Source: a virus. From it: a stretch of DNA of 27,047 nucleotides. The notes beneath the pieces were generated by a model that did no database searches, was not told the origin of the DNA, and saw only the letters and a program-made list of their open reading frames with translations. The DNA is taken from positions 1 through 27,047 of the IMG/VR virus record IMGVR_UViG_3300013119_000563; one strand, written 5' to 3'. Shown in pieces: positions 2,449-23,908 of the stretch; positions within the stretch are counted from its first letter, which is position 1, and the number at the start of each line of letters is the position of its first letter. A program made the translations under genes and the position numbers.

Positions 2449-2600
2449 AGTGCGAGACCTGCAGATGGCGCGACGAGCACAGCGAATGTCACCACGGGCC
2501 ACCGTCGGCCGCGGTGATTGACGACACCGTCGTGGCCGTGTGGCCGCCGCTGCGAATCAACGAAAAGGCGTGCAGTAAGTACGAACGGGAGCGCAAGTGA
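2445..2600 (+). CDS. Cys-rich mini-protein, probable zinc binder (51 aa)
   Basis: The ATG at 2445 overlaps the preceding TGA by ATGA, a classic coupling junction. The protein starts MKCETCRWRD with a CxxC knuckle. HSEC at residues 12-15 and AC near residue 44 give two more cysteines, four in all, enough for one zinc site, with extra His nearby. Small proteins opening with a C-x2-C-x-W motif are common in phage genomes, usually without an assigned role. It lies between an unrecognised gene and the GroES-like gene. The fold and the metal are inferred. Confidence 0.7.
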   Translation: MKCETCRWRDEHSECHHGPPSAAVIDDTVVAVWPPLRINEKACSKYERERK

Positions 2601-2893
2601 GCAGCATCACCCCCATCCTCGACAAGGTTCTGATCCGCATGGACCCCCTGGAGGCCGAGTTCGGCGACAGTGGGATCGCCCGCCCCGACATCGCCCTGGA
2701 GATGCCCATGGCTGGGACGGTCGCCGGCCGGGGGCCCGGTGGCTTCGACGAGAAGGGACGACGCATCCCCATGGAGGTCAGGCGCGGCGACCGCGTGGCC
2801 ATCCCCTGGCGCACCGGTGACGAGCAAACCATCAACGGCGCGTTGCACCGCTGGGTGCAGGAGCACCAGATCTTGGGCATCGTGGAGGACTGA
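2597..2893 (+). CDS. GroES-like co-chaperonin (Cpn10 family)
   Basis: A 98-aa protein, the usual Cpn10 length, starting at GTG 2597 (GTGA overlap with the preceding stop). The pattern follows GroES from end to end: PILDKVLIRMDP (first strand), a Gly/Ser-containing mobile-loop region at residues 17-35 followed by a PD pair, AGTVAGRGPG (the GxVxxxGxG turn), VRRGDRVAIP (the VKxGDxVLF strand) and a C-terminal ILGIVE matching the family's DILAVIE ending. GroES caps GroEL and encloses folding clients. T4 gp31 is the established phage example, needed for capsid protein folding. The usual hydrophobic tripeptide of the mobile loop (IVL-like) is not obvious, GIARPD being present instead, so GroEL binding could be altered. 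No groEL-like gene is visible, so it would act with host GroEL. Confidence 0.85.
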   Translation: MSSITPILDKVLIRMDPLEAEFGDSGIARPDIALEMPMAGTVAGRGPGGFDEKGRRIPMEVRRGDRVAIPWRTGDEQTINGALHRWVQEHQILGIVED

Positions 2894-3087
2894 TGAAACC
2901 CTGCAAGTGCGGCTCGATTCAACTGCGAGTGAACAACCCCGGCGACGGCCGGTTCTGGGCGTCCTGCGACGAGTGCGACGCCAAGGGGCCAGAGGCCACC
3001 ACCAAGGCCCTCGCCATCGAGGCATGGGACAAGATGGTGCGCCAGGCGCCTTCGCTGCCCACCCCCCCGGACGGTGATCCCCAATAG
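2893..3087 (+). CDS. Lar-like zinc ribbon (restriction-alleviation family)
   Basis: A 64-aa protein whose ATG overlaps the preceding stop by one base (TGATG). It opens MKPCKCGS and continues through FWASCDECDAKGPEA to a final AIEAWDKM. That is close to the Lar family layout: KPCPFCGS, a short beta hairpin, V-C-x2-C-GAxGP, then a helix ending AIxxWN. Two Cys pairs (CKC and CDEC) would form one zinc ribbon, although the first pair is CxC rather than CxxC. Lar of the Rac prophage modulates host type I restriction. Many phage homologues have no tested role, so restriction evasion is a hypothesis here. The last 15 or so residues are Pro-rich. Confidence 0.72.
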   Translation: MKPCKCGSIQLRVNNPGDGRFWASCDECDAKGPEATTKALAIEAWDKMVRQAPSLPTPPDGDPQ

Positions 3088-3090
3088 CTC

Positions 3091-4752
3091 ATGGCTGACA
3101 CCGGCTCCACAGGCCAGGCGCTCGATACCACCTTCCCTCGCCAGTACGTCAGCGCGAGGACCCAGGCCGAGCAGGTGCTGTGGCGCAGCTATGAGCTTTC
3201 CTCGATCACGCTGGAGGAGTACGCCGCCAAGATGGTCGCGGCCTCAAAGCTGGTCGGCGAGGTCGACCGGCGCGTGTCCACCGACCGCCGGGTCAAGATG
3301 CTCCGCGACGAGTGGGCCCCGCTGCTCAAGGCGTACTTCATCAACTGGGTGACCGACGCTGTCCGCAAGGCGGTCCTGGGCAAAGCCGATGACCACATGG
3401 ACATCAGTCGGAACGCCTTCAAGCACATCACCCGCGAGCTCTCGGTGGCCTACAAGAGCCCGGCCCTGCGCTCCACGCCAAAGAGTCCCAAGGACGGCGA
3501 GCGGTATAACGAGTTGCTGAAGGGGACCGGTTTCGATCTCTTCTGGCAGCAGGTGGAGCGTCACGTCGAGGCCTGCAACGATGTCCTGATCTGGCCCGAC
3601 GTCGTGACCATCGATGGCAAGAAGCAGATCCGGCACCGCTGGTGTGTGGGCAACCGCGCCACCGTGATCACGCTGGACGAGGAGCCGACCATCCCCGAGG
3701 GCGTGCTGTTCATCGACCAGTTCCGGACCATGGAGGGTGACGTCCGCGTGCTCTACAACCTCTGGACCGACCGCTGGCATGCGCAGTTTGCGGAGGGCGC
3801 TGACGGCCTGGAGCAGACGGGCTATGTGGATCCCGATATTCCGCCGGCCAAGGATGGTGGCAGCGCGAATCCCTACGGCGTGCTGCCGTTCATCCCGATT
3901 CACAAGAACCGCTGGCAAGACACGTTCTGGGACATCACCACCGGCGAGGACCTGGTAGATCTGACGCTTAATGTGGGCGTGGCCAAGCTGTTCTACAACT
4001 ACATGCGCAAGATGTCGGGCTTCAAGCAGCTCATCGCATGGGGGGACTCGGTCGACCGGACCCCCCAGATGCTCCTTGACCCTGCGGCGGTGGCGAAGAT
4101 CGTCACCAGCGGCGGAATTGAGATCGCCGACTGGACCATCGATCTGGGTGCCTACCTGGAGTGCATGGAGCGCGAGGAGCTGGCCAAGGCCGCGGCCCTG
4201 GGCATCAACCCGGAGCGCTACAAGCAGAAGCAGAGCCACCAGAATGCCCACGCTGCGGCGCTGTCCGAGCGGGGCCTGGCTGAGATCCGGATGCACAAGA
4301 TGCTGGCCCTCCAGGACGCTGAGCAGCGCTACTACCGGATGTGCTGCATCGTCTGGGCGGCCATGAGCATCGAGGACGTGCCAGACAAGGACGCCGAGCT
4401 CGAGGTGATCCACGCCCCGATCTGGTACCCGTCAGATCCGAAGGCCCAAAGCGAGCTCGACAGCGCGGACATCTCGCGCGGCCTGGAGTCGCCAGTCACG
4501 ATCTGGATGAAGCGGCACCCCGGCGCCACCGAGGAGGAGGCCGAGGCCGCCATCAAGAAGAACATGGAACAAACGGCAAAAGTGCAGGCCATGAAGGTCA
4601 CGCACAACATGCCGAAGAACCCCGAAACCGAGTCGCTCAGCGCTGAGGAAAACGGTGGCCAAGGTGGTCGCCCGATCGAAGATGCTGACGGCGTAAACAT
4701 GCAGTCTCCACCCGGAGCGGCGCCCGGGAAACCAAATCCGCCAGAGGAGTAA
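3091..4752 (+). CDS. Portal protein
   Basis: A 553-aa protein with portal size and placement, directly upstream of the scaffold candidate. It should form the dodecameric ring at one capsid vertex through which the terminase pumps DNA. Portal-like features are an N-terminal helical region, the NPYGVLPFIPIHKNRW segment (around residues 268-283, the hpyGxxPf motif of many portals), and a following long helix region with LVDLTLNVGVAKLFYNYMRK. The C-terminal tail is acidic and Pro/Gly-rich (GGQGGRP to KPNPPEE), probably flexible. The start at ATG 3091 has a GGTGATC sequence 10 bases upstream, which can pair with the 16S 3' end. An overlapping ATG at 3074 is in another frame and looks non-coding. 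Confidence 0.85.
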   Translation: MADTGSTGQALDTTFPRQYVSARTQAEQVLWRSYELSSITLEEYAAKMVAASKLVGEVDRRVSTDRRVKMLRDEWAPLLKAYFINWVTDAVRKAVLGKADDHMDISRNAFKHITRELSVAYKSPALRSTPKSPKDGERYNELLKGTGFDLFWQQVERHVEACNDVLIWPDVVTIDGKKQIRHRWCVGNRATVITLDEEPTIPEGVLFIDQFRTMEGDVRVLYNLWTDRWHAQFAEGADGLEQTGYVDPDIPPAKDGGSANPYGVLPFIPIHKNRWQDTFWDITTGEDLVDLTLNVGVAKLFYNYMRKMSGFKQLIAWGDSVDRTPQMLLDPAAVAKIVTSGGIEIADWTIDLGAYLECMEREELAKAAALGINPERYKQKQSHQNAHAAALSERGLAEIRMHKMLALQDAEQRYYRMCCIVWAAMSIEDVPDKDAELEVIHAPIWYPSDPKAQSELDSADISRGLESPVTIWMKRHPGATEEEAEAAIKKNMEQTAKVQAMKVTHNMPKNPETESLSAEENGGQGGRPIEDADGVNMQSPPGAAPGKPNPPEE

Positions 4753-4755
4753 AGC

Positions 4756-5391
4756 ATGCCACCAGGACCACTTGATCCCGTGAACCAGATCCCGACCGCC
4801 CCAGCGGCCACGCCGCCCGGGGAAGTCACCCCGCCGCCCGCTGCCGCCCCGGCCGAGCCCCCGCGGACCTACACCGCCGAGGAGCACAAGGCCGCCCTCG
4901 TGGGCCAGGGCAAGGAGCTGAAGCGTCTCCAGGAGGAGAACGAAGCCCTGGCCGCCGCCGCCGCCGAGCGCAAGACCGCCGACGAGGCCGCCGAGACCGC
5001 GCGCCTTGAGGCCGCCGGGGAGCACCAGAAGCTCCGCGAGCAGGCCGAGGCCCGCGCCACGGCGCTGGAGGAGGAGAACAACGCGCTGAAGGAGCGCGAG
5101 ACCACCCGCCTCGAGGCCAAGGACAAGGCCAACGAAAAGCGGATCAAAGAGCTCCCCAAGGAGTACCGCGACCTCATCCCGGCCGGGCTCGGCCCGGACG
5201 CCAAAGAGGAGCAGATCGCCAAGCTGGAGCGGATCTCCGGAACCGCGGTGCCTGTCGGCGTCCACCAGGGGGTCCCCCGCAACGCCCCGGCGTTGACCGA
5301 TGAGGAGGCCAGGAAGAAGCACAACGAGGACCTGCAAAAGGCCGGCTGGGACGCCATGACCGGAAAGAAACCGGAGGAGGCGGCATCATGA
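4756..5391 (+). CDS. Capsid scaffolding protein candidate
   Basis: A 211-aa protein between portal and capsid genes with typical scaffold composition. It has a Pro/Ala-rich N-terminus (residues 1-38), then a long charged coiled coil (about 45-140, rich in EEN, ERE and KEL heptads), then a KELPKEYRDLIPAGL segment and a basic C-terminal region. Scaffolds line the inside of the procapsid and leave, or are digested, before packaging. I see no Ser-His protease or ClpP-like motif, so this looks like a plain scaffold without a fused maturation protease. It is preceded by CAGAGGAG at good spacing, and its TGA overlaps the next ATG. Confidence 0.72.
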   Translation: MPPGPLDPVNQIPTAPAATPPGEVTPPPAAAPAEPPRTYTAEEHKAALVGQGKELKRLQEENEALAAAAAERKTADEAAETARLEAAGEHQKLREQAEARATALEEENNALKERETTRLEAKDKANEKRIKELPKEYRDLIPAGLGPDAKEEQIAKLERISGTAVPVGVHQGVPRNAPALTDEEARKKHNEDLQKAGWDAMTGKKPEEAAS

Positions 5392-5840
5392 AAAAGGACA
5401 CCAGCAAGGACGCCAAGCAGGCCAAGGGCCCCGCCAACGAGGCGCAGCCCGACGAGGTACCGTCCGACGAGGCGCAGCCCGCAGAGTTCCCGACCATCGA
5501 CGAGCTGCTCGCCGGCCCGAACTACAACCAGGCGGGACTCCTGGTCACCGACCCGGACCCCGCCATGCAATATTACTGGGCGTCGCCGTCCAAAGACCCG
5601 GACGACCCACAGGGGGTCGCCGCTTGCGAAAGCAAGGGCTACCGGGTATCTTCGAAGAAACACAACTCCCGCGACTGCATCCTGATGGAGCAGCCCAAAG
5701 AGTTGTACGAGGCACGCATGGCCCACGAACGCGAACAGCAGAAAGAGATCGAGGAAGCGATGGCGACGCCCCGCATTCCGAAGGGCGGCAGCCCGGGCGA
5801 TCTCCGCAGGCTCTCGCGGACGGGGGGCCTGGAGGGCTAA
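5388..5840 (+). CDS. Hypothetical protein between scaffold and capsid genes
   Basis: A 150-aa protein coupled to the scaffold gene by an ATGA overlap. The N-terminal 35 residues are Lys/Asp/Glu/Pro-rich and contain a short duplication (NEAQPDEVPS, then DEAQPAEFPT). The middle holds LVTDPDPAMQYYWAS and KGYRVSSKKHNSRD. The C-terminal part is a charged helix followed by a Gly/Arg tail. Position suggests a minor head component. I do not recognise a domain. Confidence 0.65.
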   Translation: MKKDTSKDAKQAKGPANEAQPDEVPSDEAQPAEFPTIDELLAGPNYNQAGLLVTDPDPAMQYYWASPSKDPDDPQGVAACESKGYRVSSKKHNSRDCILMEQPKELYEARMAHEREQQKEIEEAMATPRIPKGGSPGDLRRLSRTGGLEG

Positions 5841-5843
5841 GAA

Positions 5844-6296
5844 ATGCCAAATGAGGGTTATCTCGCGGGGTTCCGTCCCGCCAACGCGTTCCCCAAGATC
5901 CGCTGGCTGCCCGTGGCCGCCACGCAGACGCTGGCGCCGGGAGATCTGGTGATCCTGTCCAACAACCAGATCGCCATCGCGACCGCGACCAGCGCGGAGC
6001 TGTGCGGGGCCATGGCCGGCAGATCGGTCCTGGCCGACGCCGGGACGCTCGTCCCCGTGTACGCGGACCCCGACGAGGAGTTCGTCTGCATCGCCGACGC
6101 CGACTCCAGCGGGGTCGGCGCGGGCGACTACCGCGACATCGTCGGGGCCACCGGCGCCATGCAGATGGACGTCGGCGGAACCACCTACAACGTCCTCACG
6201 GCGTTGCGGGCGAACCCGGACGCAACCCTCACCTCGGCCTACGCGCAGTGGATCGTCAAGATCGCCCTGCACGCCTTCGCCGACATCTCGAGCTAA
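5844..6296 (+). CDS. Putative capsid decoration (cement) protein
   Basis: A 150-aa protein directly upstream of the major capsid gene, where lambda-like phages keep decoration proteins. The sequence is beta-rich with small residues: LPVAATQTLAPGDLVILSNNQIAIATA (residues 22-48), GTLVPVYADPDEEFVCIAD, then VGGTTYNVLTAL. A PGDLV turn of this type is common in small trimeric capsid-stabilising proteins that coat the shell. The C-terminal helix ends AFADISS. A GGAGGGC site precedes the ATG at suitable distance. The role rests on position and composition. A minor head protein is the alternative. Confidence 0.55.
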   Translation: MPNEGYLAGFRPANAFPKIRWLPVAATQTLAPGDLVILSNNQIAIATATSAELCGAMAGRSVLADAGTLVPVYADPDEEFVCIADADSSGVGAGDYRDIVGATGAMQMDVGGTTYNVLTALRANPDATLTSAYAQWIVKIALHAFADISS

Positions 6297-6297
6297 G

Positions 6298-6309
6298 GAG
6301 GAGGTGATC
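6298..6309 (+). promoter_or_regulatory. Extended Shine-Dalgarno of the major capsid gene
   Basis: GGAGGAGGTGATC lies just before the capsid ATG at 6312. Its last ten bases (6300-6309) match the complement of the conserved bacterial 16S rRNA 3' end, and a second AAGGAGG core starts at 6295. The GGAGG core at 6300-6304 is seven bases from the start codon. It is the longest such match among the starts in this window and fits very high capsid expression. Confidence 0.85.
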
Positions 6310-6311
6310 TT

Positions 6312-7223
6312 ATGCCGATGACACTCGTTTCTTTCCCCCTGGAGTACGATCAGAACGTCCAGGTCCGCATCTTCAACGGCCTCCGCGAGCAGCCCAACTA
6401 CTACGCGGAGCTGTTCAACATCGACCCCACCGAGGACTACATCACCGAGACCGCCGGATACGGCGGCTTCGGGACCATGGGCCAGTGGCCCGACGGTGAG
6501 CCGCTGCCCATCGATGAGGCGGTCAGGGTGTTCCAGGACTCGATGACCCAGGTCTTCTACGGGATGGGCTTCGCGGTGACCAGAAAGCACCTGCCCCGGA
6601 CGGCCGGCGGCTACGGCTACGGCCAGCTCAGGCTGGTCCAGCAGTGGGCTAACTCCCTGTCCCGCAGCGTCATGCAGACACTCAACGTCAGGCACGCCGC
6701 GGTGCTCAACAACGCCTTCACCACCACCTACGACTCGCTGGGCGGCCAGGTGCTCTACAGCGACACCCACCTGACGGCCAACGGCGCCAACGACCGCAGC
6801 AACTTCCTCGCGGCAGCGGCGCTGACCCCGGCCAACCTCCAGGCCTTGATGCTGGTGGGATGGAACAACACCAACCACCGCGGCCTGCGCGATCCCATCC
6901 GCTACACCAAGATCGCGGCAAACCCCGCGCTGGAGAGGACCATCACCAAGATCCTCGAATCCAACAACGAGCCGTTCACCACGGACAACGACATCAACAC
7001 CCAAAAGGGGAAGTTGGCGCCGCATCTCAACCCGTTCCTGACCTCGGCCACCCAGTGGAACCTGCAGAGCGACACCCACGGACTGCAGACCCTGGTGGGC
7101 ATGCCGCCGACCCCCAAGCGGTTCATGGACGAGGACACCGAGACCCTGGTTCACGGCGTGGCGACCGACTTCGTCACCGGCGTGGAGTTCTTCGAGGGAT
7201 CCGCAGGCTGCGCGGGAGCGTAA
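6312..7223 (+). CDS. Major capsid protein (Mu gpT-like)
   Basis: A 303-aa protein in the major capsid slot after the scaffold and decoration candidates, with the strongest ribosome site in the window. The second half, with RDPIRYTKIAANPALERTI, EPFTTDNDIN and KLAPHLNPFLTSATQWNL, follows the Mu gpT-like HK97-fold pattern: a conserved stretch before a helix, a loop with Asn/Asp, then a strand leading to W-x-L. NANNRS-like polar segments fit the E-loop and A-domain, but I cannot place them exactly. No long N-terminal delta domain is evident, and a separate scaffold is present, so a processed form is not obvious. It should form the icosahedral shell. Confidence 0.82.
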   Translation: MPMTLVSFPLEYDQNVQVRIFNGLREQPNYYAELFNIDPTEDYITETAGYGGFGTMGQWPDGEPLPIDEAVRVFQDSMTQVFYGMGFAVTRKHLPRTAGGYGYGQLRLVQQWANSLSRSVMQTLNVRHAAVLNNAFTTTYDSLGGQVLYSDTHLTANGANDRSNFLAAAALTPANLQALMLVGWNNTNHRGLRDPIRYTKIAANPALERTITKILESNNEPFTTDNDINTQKGKLAPHLNPFLTSATQWNLQSDTHGLQTLVGMPPTPKRFMDEDTETLVHGVATDFVTGVEFFEGSAGCAGA

Positions 7224-7235
7224 GGGAGTCACACC

Positions 7236-9302
7236 ATGGGAACCACAGCGGCTGACTGGAACGTCGGCGGCGCGCTGAACGTCACAGGGCTAACAACCCT
7301 GTCCGGCGGGATCGCACTGACCGGCGCCTTCACCTTCACGGGTACCAACTTCAACCTCGATCCGACGGGGACCTACACGCTGGACATGGACGCCGGACAG
7401 GCGTACAGCGTGGACATCCTCGGCGCCGCCTCCAACATCACCTTGGCCAGCACCGGCGCGGGCCACGACCTCACGGTCAACGTCACCGGGGCGACCGACT
7501 CCTCGCTGGTGCTCTCCAGCACCGGCACCGCCGCCGACGCCCTGCAGGTAGCGGCATCAGCGGGCGGCGTGGACATCTCCGCGGCCCTCGGCCTGGACCT
7601 GGTGTCCGCGGACGCGGCCTGCGGGTGGACCCACACCGCCAGCGGCGGCGCGGAAGACCTGACGATCGCCGTAGCCGGCGCCGTGGACTCAAGCCTGGTG
7701 CTCTCCAGCGCCGGAACGGGGACCGACGCGCTCCAGATCGCAGCCTCGGCCGGCGGCCTGGTGATCACCTCGGCCAACCAGACCTCGAGCTGGACCCACA
7801 CCGCCGATGGGGCCGCGGATGATCTGACGATCGCGGTCGCCGGAGCCACCGACTCATCGCTGTTCCTATCCTCCGCGGGCACAGGGACCGACGCCATCGC
7901 CATGACGGCCTCGGCCGGCGGCATCGACATCACGGCGGCAACCTCCCTGGATCTGGTCAGCGCCGACACCGCGTGCGGCTGGACCCACACGGCGTCCGGC
8001 GCCGCAGAGGACCTGTCAATCGCCGTCGCGGGGGCGGTCGACTCCTCCCTGATCTTGTCCTCGGCCGGGACCGGCGCGGACGCTCTGCAGGTGACCGCCT
8101 CGGCGGGCGGGATCGTGATGTCCAGCGCCAACACAACGTCAAGCTGGACGCACGCGGCCGATGGTGCCGGCGACGATCTGACCATCTCGGTCACCGGGGC
8201 AGTGGACAGCAGCCTCATCCTGCAGTCCGCGGGCACAGGGGCCGACGCCGTCACCCTGCAGTCCGCGGGCGGCGTGCTCATCGGGGCCGGCGGGGCGGTA
8301 TCCGTCCTGAGCACCGACCCCATGACCTTCTCCCTTGGCGCCCTGGAGGCCCTGCAGTTCGACAACGCGGCGATCTCGGGCTTCGACCTCGGCGACGACA
8401 CCGCGGGCACCGACGTTTACGTCGAGACCGCAGATGCGGGCGCAACGCCTACCGTGGCCCGGGCCGGCGGCGCGTACAACTTCAAGACCGGAGACGGGGC
8501 CGCGGCGGCAGACGCCACGGCATGCGGGGCCGGTGGAGCGCTGGACCACGTGACCGGCGCAGGCGGGGCGAACACGGGTGGCGCCTCGGGCGAGGCGGGC
8601 GGGGACGGCGGGGCCTACAGCATCACGACCGGGGCCGGCGGGGCGACCAACTCCCAGGGCGCCCACAACGCCGGGGACGCGGGCGACGTAACCATCACGG
8701 CCGGGGACGGAGGCAACGCCACGGCCGGCACCGGCGACGGAGGCAACGGCGGCGGCGTGACCATCACGGCCGGAGCGGGCGGCACCACCACGGGCGGCGC
8801 GGCGGGCAGCGACGGTCTGATCTCCCTCGCAGGGACGACCCAGATCTACCGCGCCGGCAGCGCCTCGGCGGCCCTGCTCAGGGCCTACGGGCCGGCATCG
8901 GGCGAGGGCATGGACACCATGATCGTGGACATTACGGTCAGCCCGGCAGCCGTCGAAACCGCCGTGTTCTCGGTCCCGGCGGGCGCGGTCATCAGGGCCG
9001 TGCTCGGCAACTGCGAGTCGGCCCTCACGGGCGGCGGCACAACCGTCACCTGGTCACTGGGGACCGCCGCAGACCCGGACAAGTACGGCAGCGCCGGGCT
9101 CTACCCCACCCAGGCCGACTCGCTGGCGCAAAACAGCAAGTCCAACTGGATCATCGGCGGAACCCAGCTCACGGGCCAGGAGGACATCGTCCTCACGGGG
9201 GCCGTCACGGGCGGCGCGGCCGACGGCGACACGGCATTGACCGTCGGATCGGTTCGGGTCGTCATCATCTACGACACCTACAACGCCCTGGCCAACGCGT
9301 AA
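7236..9302 (+). CDS. Repetitive fibre-like virion protein, probable head fibre
   Basis: A 688-aa protein placed directly after the capsid gene, with its own AGGGAG site and a terminator after the stop. Residues 1-65 form a beta-rich head. Residues 66-352 hold five tandem beta units marked by DSSL at 88, 151, 206, 269 and 324, with alternating spacing of 63, 55, 63 and 55. Residues 403-528 are glycine-rich with three short T-x-I-T runs (YSITTG, GDVTITAG, GGVTITAG), likely a polyglycine or triple-stranded shaft. Residues 559-688 form a beta sandwich-like tip (DITVSP, FSVPAGAVIRAV, VRVVIIYDTYNA). This head-shaft-tip plan is typical of trimeric phage fibres. The position next to the capsid gene favours a head fibre or decoration, perhaps binding cell surfaces. 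A tail fibre cannot be excluded. Confidence 0.7.
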   Translation: MGTTAADWNVGGALNVTGLTTLSGGIALTGAFTFTGTNFNLDPTGTYTLDMDAGQAYSVDILGAASNITLASTGAGHDLTVNVTGATDSSLVLSSTGTAADALQVAASAGGVDISAALGLDLVSADAACGWTHTASGGAEDLTIAVAGAVDSSLVLSSAGTGTDALQIAASAGGLVITSANQTSSWTHTADGAADDLTIAVAGATDSSLFLSSAGTGTDAIAMTASAGGIDITAATSLDLVSADTACGWTHTASGAAEDLSIAVAGAVDSSLILSSAGTGADALQVTASAGGIVMSSANTTSSWTHAADGAGDDLTISVTGAVDSSLILQSAGTGADAVTLQSAGGVLIGAGGAVSVLSTDPMTFSLGALEALQFDNAAISGFDLGDDTAGTDVYVETADAGATPTVARAGGAYNFKTGDGAAAADATACGAGGALDHVTGAGGANTGGASGEAGGDGGAYSITTGAGGATNSQGAHNAGDAGDVTITAGDGGNATAGTGDGGNGGGVTITAGAGGTTTGGAAGSDGLISLAGTTQIYRAGSASAALLRAYGPASGEGMDTMIVDITVSPAAVETAVFSVPAGAVIRAVLGNCESALTGGGTTVTWSLGTAADPDKYGSAGLYPTQADSLAQNSKSNWIIGGTQLTGQEDIVLTGAVTGGAADGDTALTVGSVRVVIIYDTYNALANA
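7431..8292 (+). repeat. Five tandem beta repeats, alternating 63- and 55-residue units
   Basis: Units share the core DL(T/S)IxVxGAxDSSLxLxSxGTG followed by ASAGG. Long units carry an extra LDLVSADxACGW segment, while short units end ANxTSSW. The higher-order unit is therefore 118 residues (354 bases), present about two and a half times. Confidence 0.9.
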
Positions 9303-14433: not shown

Positions 14434-16680
14434 ATGCCCTTCGGGAGCGAAACAAAGCCGGTCATCACTGAGTGGATCCTCAGTAACAAGGGGACCATCG
14501 AGAACATCGACGAGCAGGCCAAGGCCATCCGCAAGGAGGCGAAGGCTGAGCGCGACTTGATGTTGGTGGCCAAAAAACTCGGGTTTGAGTTTGGCAAGAA
14601 CGAGAAGGCCCTAAAGAAGGAAACAGCAGCACTCAAGGAGCAGGAGAAGGCCGCCAAAGCACGGCTGAAGATCGACAAGGCGCTGGAGGCCGCCATCAAG
14701 AAAAACGCCGCCGCCCGGGCAAGAGCGCTCAAAGAGCAGGAGGCAGCGGCCAAGAGAACCGCCACCACATGGACTGAACTCAAATCGAAATACAGCGTCG
14801 TCACCGGGGTTGTCGGCAAATTGTACAGGATGTTTGATCGGGCGATGTCACAAGGGACGCGCCTCAACAAGATGTACGACGCGCAGACCCTTTCCATCAC
14901 CGCGGCGACCAGGGCGACCGAGGGATTTCTTTCCCAGTCCGAGTTGCTGAGGGCGGCCAACCTGTCCCAGACGATGAAGCTGGATCTCACGTCCGAGCAG
15001 TTCGCCAGAATGTCCAGAAATGCGGTCATCGCTGCCGATATCATCGGGGGCGACGTACCCAACGCCATCAACGATCTGATGGTCGGCCTGAGTCGCCAGA
15101 GTAAGCAGATCTTGGACAACCTCGGAATCCAGGTCAGCGCCACCAAGGCCCAGGCGGATTATGCCAAGCAGCTCGGGGTGACAACGGCAGCGCTCACCGA
15201 GGCCGACAAGAAGCAGGCCTTCATCAACGCGGCGCTGAAAGACCTCGAGCGCATCGCCGCTGCTTCGAATCTCGAAATCAAGACCAGCGGCGACGCCTGG
15301 CGCGTGCTCGAGAACTCCCAGGACGACGCCCAGGCGGCGTTTGTGCGGTGGATCGCTGAGGCCACAGTCGGGAAGGAGCTGCTGACAGACATCGCGACAC
15401 TTGCGCGGGACGCGGCGGCGGCTCTGTATATCGACCCCTTCCAGCGGCAAAAGCAGGAACTGCGCGAGCTGGGCTTCGACGTTGAGGAGACAATAACCAA
15501 GACCGGCCATATAGAGCTGAAGCTCCTGCGGAAGACGGCCGACGGAATGAAGGAGGTCACTGCCGATCTGCTGAACTGGGGGACGCAAAGGTCGAATATA
15601 TGGGCAAAGGATAAGGGGAAAACGTGGCGCCGGGCATATAAGATCTTCACGGAATATCACGCCAATGCCGTCAGGCAGCAGGTGAACCTCTACAAAAAGT
15701 CAGCGACAGAGTTCGACAAGATGGTCGCCGGGATGGAGAAGCGGGCGCAGAAATTCTACCGGACCACGCCGCGCACCGGAGCGGAAAGGCGCGCGCTTCG
15801 CAGATTCAGGGACGAACAGGCAAAGGCGTATGCCGCCACGGCTCCCGGGAATGCCGACGTCCGCGCCGCAGAAAGAAAAGCCCGCAAGAAGAAGCGAGCC
15901 AGCAGACGAGCACCAACAATTGAAGGCGGGGCTGGCTTCATGATGGGAGGGCTTGTTCCTGGCGGCGATGGCGGCTTGGGGCTCGGCATGGGCGCGGGTG
16001 CGGCCGGCGCGCTGACGCCCGAGGGCCCCAGCCCCTACGCCCAGGCCGCGATCGACATGCTCAAGCTCACCGACGCCACGCAGAAGAAGATCGACGCGGA
16101 CATCGGCGCAGAGGCGGCGGCCCGGCGTCACGCCGTGGCCATGAGCGAGTTGAAGCTCGAGGTCACCGATATGGCCACCGGCGCGCTGGCGCAGTTTGCA
16201 TCCGGGATGTGGGCAGCCGCTGACGCCGCGATCATGGGCGAAGAGTCCATGGGCATGGCCCTGGCCAAGATGCTCAAGACGACCCTCCTGGGCATCGCCG
16301 CTGAGGCCACAGCGCGAGCGGTGCTGGAACTTGGGCTGGGCTTCGCTGCGCAGGCCGCTACCTCCGGGGTGCCGAACCCTAAAAGCATCCTGCACTTCAC
16401 CAGCGCAGCCATCCTTGGCGGCATCGGGGCAGTGACTGGGGTCGCCGGTCTGGCAGTGTCTGCGGGCATCTCAGCGGCCGGGGGCTACGATAAGAAAACC
16501 TCCGGGAGCACTACCAAGGCGAAGACCAGCAGCACCCCGAGTTACCAGAGTTTCGGCGACCGCAAGAAGGAAAGTGACAAGCCGTTGCACGTCCATCTCT
16601 ATCTCGGGGCCCCGGGCAACAAGGCCGCGGCCCGCCTGGCGGCGTACCAGCTCGGCGGCGTCATGCAGGAGGCTGCCTGA
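14434..16680 (+). CDS. Tail tape measure protein
   Basis: A 748-aa protein starting one base after the previous stop, with CGGAGG nine bases upstream. The rod-like protein sets tail length. At about 1.5 angstrom per helical residue it would give a tail near 110 nm (inference). Residues 20-115 form a Lys/Glu/Ala-rich coiled coil. Then come TQSLSITAATRATEG-like helical repeats and an INDLMVGLSRQSKQILDNLG segment common in tape measures, a basic KKKRASRR stretch near residue 490, and a hydrophobic Gly/Ala-rich C-terminal part (FTSAAILGGIGAVTGVAGLA, about residues 650-690) suited to membrane entry during DNA ejection. The first two thirds use more AT-ending codons than flanking genes. Confidence 0.85.
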   Translation: MPFGSETKPVITEWILSNKGTIENIDEQAKAIRKEAKAERDLMLVAKKLGFEFGKNEKALKKETAALKEQEKAAKARLKIDKALEAAIKKNAAARARALKEQEAAAKRTATTWTELKSKYSVVTGVVGKLYRMFDRAMSQGTRLNKMYDAQTLSITAATRATEGFLSQSELLRAANLSQTMKLDLTSEQFARMSRNAVIAADIIGGDVPNAINDLMVGLSRQSKQILDNLGIQVSATKAQADYAKQLGVTTAALTEADKKQAFINAALKDLERIAAASNLEIKTSGDAWRVLENSQDDAQAAFVRWIAEATVGKELLTDIATLARDAAAALYIDPFQRQKQELRELGFDVEETITKTGHIELKLLRKTADGMKEVTADLLNWGTQRSNIWAKDKGKTWRRAYKIFTEYHANAVRQQVNLYKKSATEFDKMVAGMEKRAQKFYRTTPRTGAERRALRRFRDEQAKAYAATAPGNADVRAAERKARKKKRASRRAPTIEGGAGFMMGGLVPGGDGGLGLGMGAGAAGALTPEGPSPYAQAAIDMLKLTDATQKKIDADIGAEAAARRHAVAMSELKLEVTDMATGALAQFASGMWAAADAAIMGEESMGMALAKMLKTTLLGIAAEATARAVLELGLGFAAQAATSGVPNPKSILHFTSAAILGGIGAVTGVAGLAVSAGISAAGGYDKKTSGSTTKAKTSSTPSYQSFGDRKKESDKPLHVHLYLGAPGNKAAARLAAYQLGGVMQEAA

Positions 16681-22774: not shown

Positions 22775-23908
22775 ATGGGCAGCTTTACGGTCCTCCCGAG
22801 CCTTGCAGATCTCCAGCCCAGCACTGAGTCACAGCTCGAGTCCCTGCTCGGCGCCATCAACGTCATTATCAGTACCGAGGTGGACAGCGAAGCCAAGCTC
22901 GAGGCACTGGCCGGGGCCATCAACCTGCTGGTGTCCACCGAGATGGACAGCGAAGCAGAGATAGAGGCGCTGGCCAGCATCGCCATGATCGTGGAGTCAG
23001 AAATCGACTCAGAGGCCGAGGTTGAGGCGATCATGGGCGCGGTCAACATGATCGTGGCCACGGAGATCGACAGCGAATCGGAGCTTGAGGCGCTGGTGGG
23101 CTCGCTCAACATCATCCTCGACAGCGAGATCGACACCGAGGGCAAGCTGGAGACCCTGGTGGGCGTGGCCATGGCGACCGAGGCCGAGGCCGCCACGGCG
23201 ATCTCCACGGCGGTCACCACGCATACGGGCAACGCCGGTGCTCATCACGCCAAGTACACCGACGCCGAGGCCATTGCCGCAGCCAAGACCGATCCCAAAT
23301 TCGCCGACAATGTATTCGCGCTGCAGGACAACGGTGACGCCACCAAGCAACTCGTAGCCAGCCTGGGAGGGGCCACTACTGCCAAGACCCTGACTCTGCT
23401 CAGCAACCACACCGATGACCGCGTGATCACGCTGCCGGATACAACGGGCACGCTTGACACCACGGCTGACGCCCGCGATCCGAACGCCCACGCCGCCAGC
23501 CACCAGAACGGCGCCGATGCGCTGAACAACACCGTGGCCAGCGGCACCGACAGCACGGACAGAACCACGACTACGGGCAACATCGTCGAGATCGCTGACT
23601 GTGAGATGACGCTCACTGCCGAGGCTAAAACCTACAGGCTTCACTACACGGGAGTGCACCAGATCGCGGTCGTGGGGCCGGCCACCATGAGGGTCTATTA
23701 CCAGATCGATGCCGGCGGCTGGGTCCTTTTCATCAACTCCGCCACGACCGTGGCCGGTTCGATGCACACCGTGAGCGCCAACATCCCGCTGACCCTGACC
23801 GCCGGCTCGCGCACCATCAAGTTCGGATTTGATCCCGACGCAGGAGGGGGAGCGACGATGCACACCGAGGGTGATACGACGGCCACGCAGGCCTGTATCA
23901 CGCAGTAA
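22775..23908 (+). CDS. Tail fibre with 21-residue coiled-coil stalk
   Basis: A 377-aa protein from ATG 22775 behind GAGGGG. Residues 21-124 hold five repeats of about 21 residues (three heptads each), such as LEALAGAINLLVSTEMDSEA, giving hydrophobic faces for a trimeric coiled coil. Then come two fibre hallmarks: AHHAKYTDAEAIAAAK and DPNAHAASHQNGADAL, found in many phage tail fibres. The C-terminal part is a beta sandwich-like tip (YRLHYTGVHQIAVVG, MRVYYQIDAGGWVLF, ANIPLTLTAGSRTIKFGF). Overall it looks like a stalk plus receptor-binding tip. Confidence 0.72.
   Translation: MGSFTVLPSLADLQPSTESQLESLLGAINVIISTEVDSEAKLEALAGAINLLVSTEMDSEAEIEALASIAMIVESEIDSEAEVEAIMGAVNMIVATEIDSESELEALVGSLNIILDSEIDTEGKLETLVGVAMATEAEAATAISTAVTTHTGNAGAHHAKYTDAEAIAAAKTDPKFADNVFALQDNGDATKQLVASLGGATTAKTLTLLSNHTDDRVITLPDTTGTLDTTADARDPNAHAASHQNGADALNNTVASGTDSTDRTTTTGNIVEIADCEMTLTAEAKTYRLHYTGVHQIAVVGPATMRVYYQIDAGGWVLFINSATTVAGSMHTVSANIPLTLTAGSRTIKFGFDPDAGGGATMHTEGDTTATQACITQ
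22835..23146 (+). repeat. Five tandem heptad-based repeats (about 63 bases each)
   Basis: Each unit follows LEALxGAINxIxxTEIDSEAx. Four units are 21 residues and the third is 20, which breaks the heptad register once and may mark a kink in the stalk. Confidence 0.85.

Follow-up and report, generated by a model that had tools for sequence, protein, structure and literature searches.

To our knowledge, dedicated capsid co-chaperonins have been proven by experiment only in the T4-like phages. In T4, GroEL and the phage-encoded gp31 are both required to fold gp23, a capsid protein of the HK97 fold, and GroES is no substitute (PMC3012670). E. coli GroES contacts GroEL through the tripeptide I25-V26-L27, and the binding is abolished by the substitutions I25A, I25D, L27A and L27D but not by V26D (PMC5575113). 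Co-chaperonin (Cpn10) genes are also described from other phages: a GroES gene stands in or beside the head module of siphovirus B8b (PMC4294664), Cpn10 is a core gene of the HTVC023P-type pelagiphages (PMC9599517) and a conserved gene of the Pervagoviridae (PMC8776804), and it has been described for the Roseobacter CHAB-I-5 phages (PMC10149686). The literature that we searched, with subscription journals and preprints outside it, contains no statement of the pairing of a capsid family with Cpn10, or of the Lys/Arg variant of the contact tripeptide, that are described below.

The window, i.e. the whole stretch of DNA analysed here, is the linear IMG/VR record IMGVR_UViG_3300013119_000563 of an uncultivated phage (27,047 bases, G+C 65.5%); the genes discussed below between positions 560 and 7223 all lie on the plus strand. 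The 98-aa protein encoded at 2597-2893, starting with GTG, had been proposed from the sequence to be a GroES-like co-chaperonin, and this is borne out by family profiles, known structures and a structural model. Residues 4-96 match positions 2-93 of the 93-position Cpn10 profile PF00166 (E=1.6e-13; 50.9 bits), a full-length match well above the curated cut-off of 21.1. The protein also matches PHROG 3188, 'co-chaperonin GroES' (8.6e-8), and, among PDB sequences, the M. tuberculosis Cpn10 (3.9e-12). The AlphaFold2 model, a monomer built from 66 aligned sequences, has a mean pLDDT of 86.7, and its sole clear dip (pLDDT 55) falls on the mobile loop at residues 21-30. Foldseek matches this model to the M. 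tuberculosis Cpn10 (1p3h; E=1e-7, TM 0.81), to Thermus Cpn10, human Hsp10 and E. coli GroES, and more weakly to T4 gp31 (1g31; 3.2e-3, TM 0.66). The model and Foldseek checks suggested by the earlier note thus returned a Cpn10 match, the GroES beta-barrel and a flexible mobile loop, rather than the missing hit or missing barrel that it had named as contrary outcomes. The gene is thus of a kind already known, in a divergent form.

The Cpn10 gene is located 0.5 kb downstream of the gene for the terminase large subunit (TerL, 560-2137) and overlaps both neighbouring genes. The TerL is identified by phrog_2 (1.8e-23) and by hhalign (98.3% probability, 1.3e-14) as the SSU5/RHEph10 type, which is found in SSU5, RHEph10, hairong and ANB28. 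On the upstream side, the stop codon of a small ORF of 51 aa (2445-2600), for which Pfam and PHROGs give no family match, overlaps the Cpn10 GTG; on the downstream side, the Cpn10 gene ends in a TGA that shares bases with the ATG of a 64-aa zinc-ribbon protein (2893-3087; phrog_599 7e-7, PF14354 below its cut-off). These stop/start overlaps at both ends indicate co-translation with the operon. Both neighbours are small and Cys-rich, and the second is Lar-like (restriction alleviation).

The next gene, at 3091-4752, stands where a portal gene would be expected and encodes a protein of 553 aa. Searches with Pfam, PHROG, PDB and tblastn against phage records found no homologue, and hhalign found no match to 4 portals of TerL relatives or to 10 portals of capsid relatives; that it is the portal is a guess from position and size. 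Consequently, of the placement "between terminase and portal" in the earlier note, the terminase side is confirmed and the portal side has no match behind it. A charged protein of 211 aa, probably coiled-coil by its composition, occupies the scaffold position (4756-5391), with no hhalign match to the scaffold-position genes of the phage group with which the capsid is shared (see below). The basis for calling the phage "siphovirus-like" is the tape-measure match (phrog_3779, 3.1e-8) of the gene at 14434-16680. In the tail or receptor-binding region, a 377-aa protein (22775-23908) carries short acidic repeats of the SEIDSEAEVEAL type. Searches of IMG/VR with the window protein P0001, the TerL or the 553-aa protein singly brought up no close relative, and neither did a search of GTDB genomes with P0001.

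The major capsid protein (MCP) of 303 aa, with the HK97 fold, is encoded at 6312-7223. It gives no PHROG match, tblastn matches it to 18 phage records (9e-12 at best), and hhalign supports the assignment at 99.5% (9e-23). The top Foldseek matches of its model, which is of low confidence (mean pLDDT 59.9), are HK97-fold shell proteins. Immediately upstream are two genes of 150 aa each, g2 (5388-5840; hhalign 85.5%, 5.7e-6) and the decoration-like g3 (5844-6296; 94.6%, 7.1e-8, with a weak match to phrog_122, head decoration). The counterpart of g2 is the gene two before the MCP in 11 Cpn10-bearing phages, for which the other window ORFs tested reach at most 0.5%, and the hhalign counterpart of g3 is the gene immediately before the MCP in the same phages. 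When the hhalign profiles were compared with 22 window ORFs, those of g2, g3 and MCP each matched one ORF alone, and the next best ORF reached at most 1.2%. The window TerL and putative portal gave no profile match to their counterparts in this capsid group, and Cpn10 is absent in all four sampled phages with the terminase type of the window, whose head module differs. By these profile comparisons, the window is a mosaic in which a capsid cassette (5388-7223) is joined to a terminase backbone not related to that of the capsid group. With its MCP and g2/g3 matches and its overlapping or closely spaced genes on one strand, the stretch that contains the Cpn10 gene is a head operon of the kind found in the capsid group. 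Directly 3' of the capsid gene, a 688-aa protein rich in Gly/Ala/Ser/Thr, with internal repeats, is encoded at 7236-9302.

The association of this capsid family with Cpn10 was evaluated in 12 phage genomes, one per distinct kind among the 18 capsid-matching records: CRP-901, Pag-Yong1, 023Pt_psg01, ctpbd312, vir526, ct2os315, HTVC023P, HTVC027P, ct2G2228, DSL-LC04, RLK and QDWS535. The RLK record is a 62-kb 'partial genome' and that of vir526 a circular genomic sequence; the other ten are complete or circular. A whole-genome search with PF00166 gave a match above the curated cut-off in all 12, and in every case the gene stands in or beside the head operon. The genes mostly run from TerL through the portal, one or more small genes, Cpn10 and the scaffold-position gene to g2, g3 and MCP. 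In Caulobacter phage RLK, gp090c (4149-4580 of our locus L157) is annotated as hypothetical; PF00166 identifies it as a Cpn10 (37.3 bits), and it occupies the slot of the annotated GroES in its relatives. In vir526, a virus assigned to Methanomicrobiales and so to an archaeal host, the Cpn10 gene lies upstream of TerL (145-501 of locus L153). Archaea have mostly lid-less group II chaperonins.

A second survey was blind to Cpn10: IMG/VR was scanned by capsid patterns alone, and the best 80 capsid loci were taken. Among these, Cpn10 is present in 41/41 contigs with at least 3 kb upstream of the MCP, always on the same strand and 2.1-2.8 kb before it, a count that overstates the independent evidence because the sampled contigs are interrelated. 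With at least 2 kb upstream the count is 49/52, and the three misses are contigs that end 2-3 kb upstream. The earlier note considered Cpn10 uncommon inside a packaging operon; for this capsid family the opposite is found, and the co-chaperonin is the rule. By these two surveys, the capsid family and Cpn10 are a linked pair, the linkage being near-absolute. No Cpn60 (PF00118) was matched in any of the 19 records searched, window included, and therefore host GroEL must serve, if any does. Since the window record is a 27-kb linear fragment, a Cpn60 gene past its ends is possible.

Cpn10 genes are also found outside this capsid family. A tblastn search with two phage Cpn10s gave at least 80-93 matching records in 50,697, misfiled bacterial contigs included. 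A GroES gene stands in or beside the head module in Xanthomonas phage PBR31, in the order Cpn10, small gene, TerL, portal, scaffold and MCP, and in IMG/VR contig 3300044836_000034, in the order TerL, GroES, small gene, portal and protease. Some other phages carry Cpn10 at unrelated positions, a point against the lid account of the window Cpn10 given below. The first ten phage-record matches of tblastn with the window Cpn10 were dropped as phage evidence, since the six that were opened are bacterial groES-groEL stretches; these misfiled records (L002-L007) carry the names Listeria phage LM 4-11-1, Acinetobacter phage MD-2021a and fecal 'Bacteriophage sp.'.

The mobile loop of the window Cpn10 carries the motif G-I-A-R-P-D (2672-2689), and mapping of alignment columns against 206 other Cpn10s places I-A-R (2675-2683) at E. 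coli I25-V26-L27. The loop had been described as lacking the usual hydrophobic tripeptide. This requires a correction at the first position, where Ile is kept, and stands for the others, where V26 is replaced by Ala and L27 by Arg (Arg29 of the window protein). Thus, of the two positions that are hydrophobic in a canonical GroES, the first is Ile and the third is Arg. In the alignment of 207 Cpn10 ORFs, Lys or Arg at the third position is found, besides the window, in 8/61 capsid-linked phage Cpn10s (L207, L212, L217, L221, L226, L230, L232 and L150), in 0/80 bacterial and in 0/65 other viral Cpn10s (Fisher p=4e-5, not corrected for relatedness). Seven of the eight have Lys, and Pag-Yong1 has Arg (G-I-I-R-P-D). 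Six of them are in the tree and group together there with 98% SH-aLRT. The window had seemed to be the sole Cpn10 with a charged third residue (147/147 others hydrophobic), a view overturned when the capsid-linked Cpn10s were added. A sequencing error behind A-R would need two wrong codons, and Arg is found independently in Pag-Yong1.

The change of Leu27 to Lys/Arg is thus real and recurrent. Given the loss of binding in the E. coli mutants L27A and L27D, the GroEL contact of the window Cpn10 is probably altered, being either weaker or adapted to the GroEL of one particular host. The recurrence of Lys/Arg among the capsid-linked Cpn10s agrees with the guess of an altered contact in the earlier note.

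We consider it likely that the window Cpn10 acts as a lid of the T4 gp31 type, closing host GroEL so that the phage's capsid protein, of the HK97 fold, can be folded inside. The T4 precedent of gp31 and gp23 makes this the simplest account, and the near-absolute linkage with the capsid family favours a role in capsid folding. The Cpn10 would be made from the late head operon and form a heptameric lid; this lid would cap host GroEL, giving the folding chamber that the capsid protein requires. With Arg in place of Leu27, its contact would probably be a weakened one or one fitted to the GroEL of its own host. This account draws on direct observations of the protein family and fold, the place of the gene in the operon, the linkage with the capsid and the lack of Cpn60 in the linked genomes. 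The heptamer, the binding to GroEL and the capsid protein as the client are predicted. The Arg at the third tripeptide position, judged by the effect of L27A and L27D in E. coli, counts against the lid.

A different question is where the window Cpn10 came from, and an answer to it is compatible with the lid as the best explanation of function. A captured bacterial-type GroES, inserted upstream of the presumed portal gene, may have replaced an ancestral capsid-linked Cpn10 that was lost from the slot between portal and scaffold, the reason for the capture being that the capsid cannot do without a co-chaperonin. We rate this reading, with its proposed reason, as almost as probable as not. The window gene lies 3.7 kb before the MCP and upstream of the putative portal gene, outside the 2.1-2.8 kb interval of its relatives, and at the site where they place Cpn10 the 553-aa gene is followed after only 3 nt by the next one. 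The protein shows 40-44% identity to bacterial Cpn10s and scores 66 bits with a bacterial profile, whose members were picked by similarity to the window, vs 20 bits with the capsid-linked one. In the careful tree the capsid-linked Cpn10s are on one side of a 98/96 branch and the window is outside, but a topology that joins them is not rejected there (AU p=0.18) and is even the better one in the quick tree (p=0.80). The tree is built on about 100 columns, with a long branch of 1.7-1.8, and Lys/Arg at the third position is otherwise confined to the capsid-linked clade. On these comparisons, a captured bacterial gene may therefore stand in for the inherited Cpn10. A wider proposal, which we hold as tentative, is that the HK97-fold capsid family depends on a co-encoded Cpn10, that some of its lids, that of the window included, use a non-canonical basic contact (Lys/Arg for Leu27) with host GroEL or have given up GroEL altogether, and that a lost lid was replaced by a captured bacterial GroES.

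As for function, the Cpn10 barrel might have been repurposed as a factor in the assembly or structure of the head that works independently of GroEL and has no lid function. The gene is always within the head operon, and the change of Leu27 to Arg would, judging from the E. coli mutants, break the binding to GroEL, with Lys/Arg recurring there in the eight capsid-linked phage Cpn10s. However, the Ile25 equivalent, the length of the loop and its disorder are all kept, 53/61 capsid-linked Cpn10s retain a hydrophobic third residue, and the virion peptides listed for B8b include none for its GroES (PMC4294664), so that we regard repurposing as improbable. That the gene is chance cargo from a host, with no special role in head assembly, is less probable still: phage Cpn10s do occur in diverse genomes and positions and the best sequence matches are bacterial, but the near-absolute linkage with the capsid family and the tight gene overlaps around Cpn10 argue against it.

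If the lid account is right, the phages described here would add a second capsid lineage to T4. This lineage includes short- and long-tailed phages, is common among aquatic phages, and shows a complete linkage to Cpn10 in our sample. This linkage opens to testing the question why certain HK97-fold capsid proteins require a lid of their own. In addition, the replacement of Leu27 by Lys/Arg, which should break binding by the E. coli data, recurs in nature and amounts to a natural experiment on the extent to which the GroEL contact can change.

Among the known systems, the bacterial GroES proteins (M. tuberculosis, Acidobacteriota and Actinomycetota Cpn10) share with the window protein 35-44% full-length identity, the fold and the roof-loop style G-P-G-x-x-D-E-x-G, and in profile score the window Cpn10 is closer to them than to the profile of its capsid-linked relatives. 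In contrast to them, it is not paired with groEL, and it has A-R for V26-L27 and EMPM for EKPQ. The slot between terminase and portal is shared with IMG/VR contig 3300044836_000034 (L014), whose TerL, portal and protease are of another lineage (phrog_675, 3753 and 8158) and whose loop is the canonical G-I-I-I-P-D. T4 gp31, like RB49 CocO, is a phage-coded Cpn10 that acts with host GroEL and is tied to the folding of an HK97-fold capsid protein, a client that is inferred here. The window protein differs from gp31 in having 12% identity to it over the structural alignment, in being encoded within the head operon and in its tripeptide I-A-R. The HTVC023P/HTVC027P-type pelagiphages, Roseobacter CRP-901, Planktothrix Pag-Yong1, Caulobacter RLK, DSL-LC04, Alcaligenes QDWS535 and their relatives share the capsid family (22-26% identity), the g2-g3-MCP cassette and a Cpn10 gene upstream in the head operon. 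In these phages, vir526 excepted, the Cpn10 gene follows the portal and precedes the scaffold, at 2.1-2.8 kb from the MCP, unlike that of the window. Most of their Cpn10s carry an N-terminal extension that the window protein lacks, and their terminase and portal are not recognisably related to the terminase and putative portal of the window. Pag-Yong1, however, shares with the window the Arg at the third position of the tripeptide.
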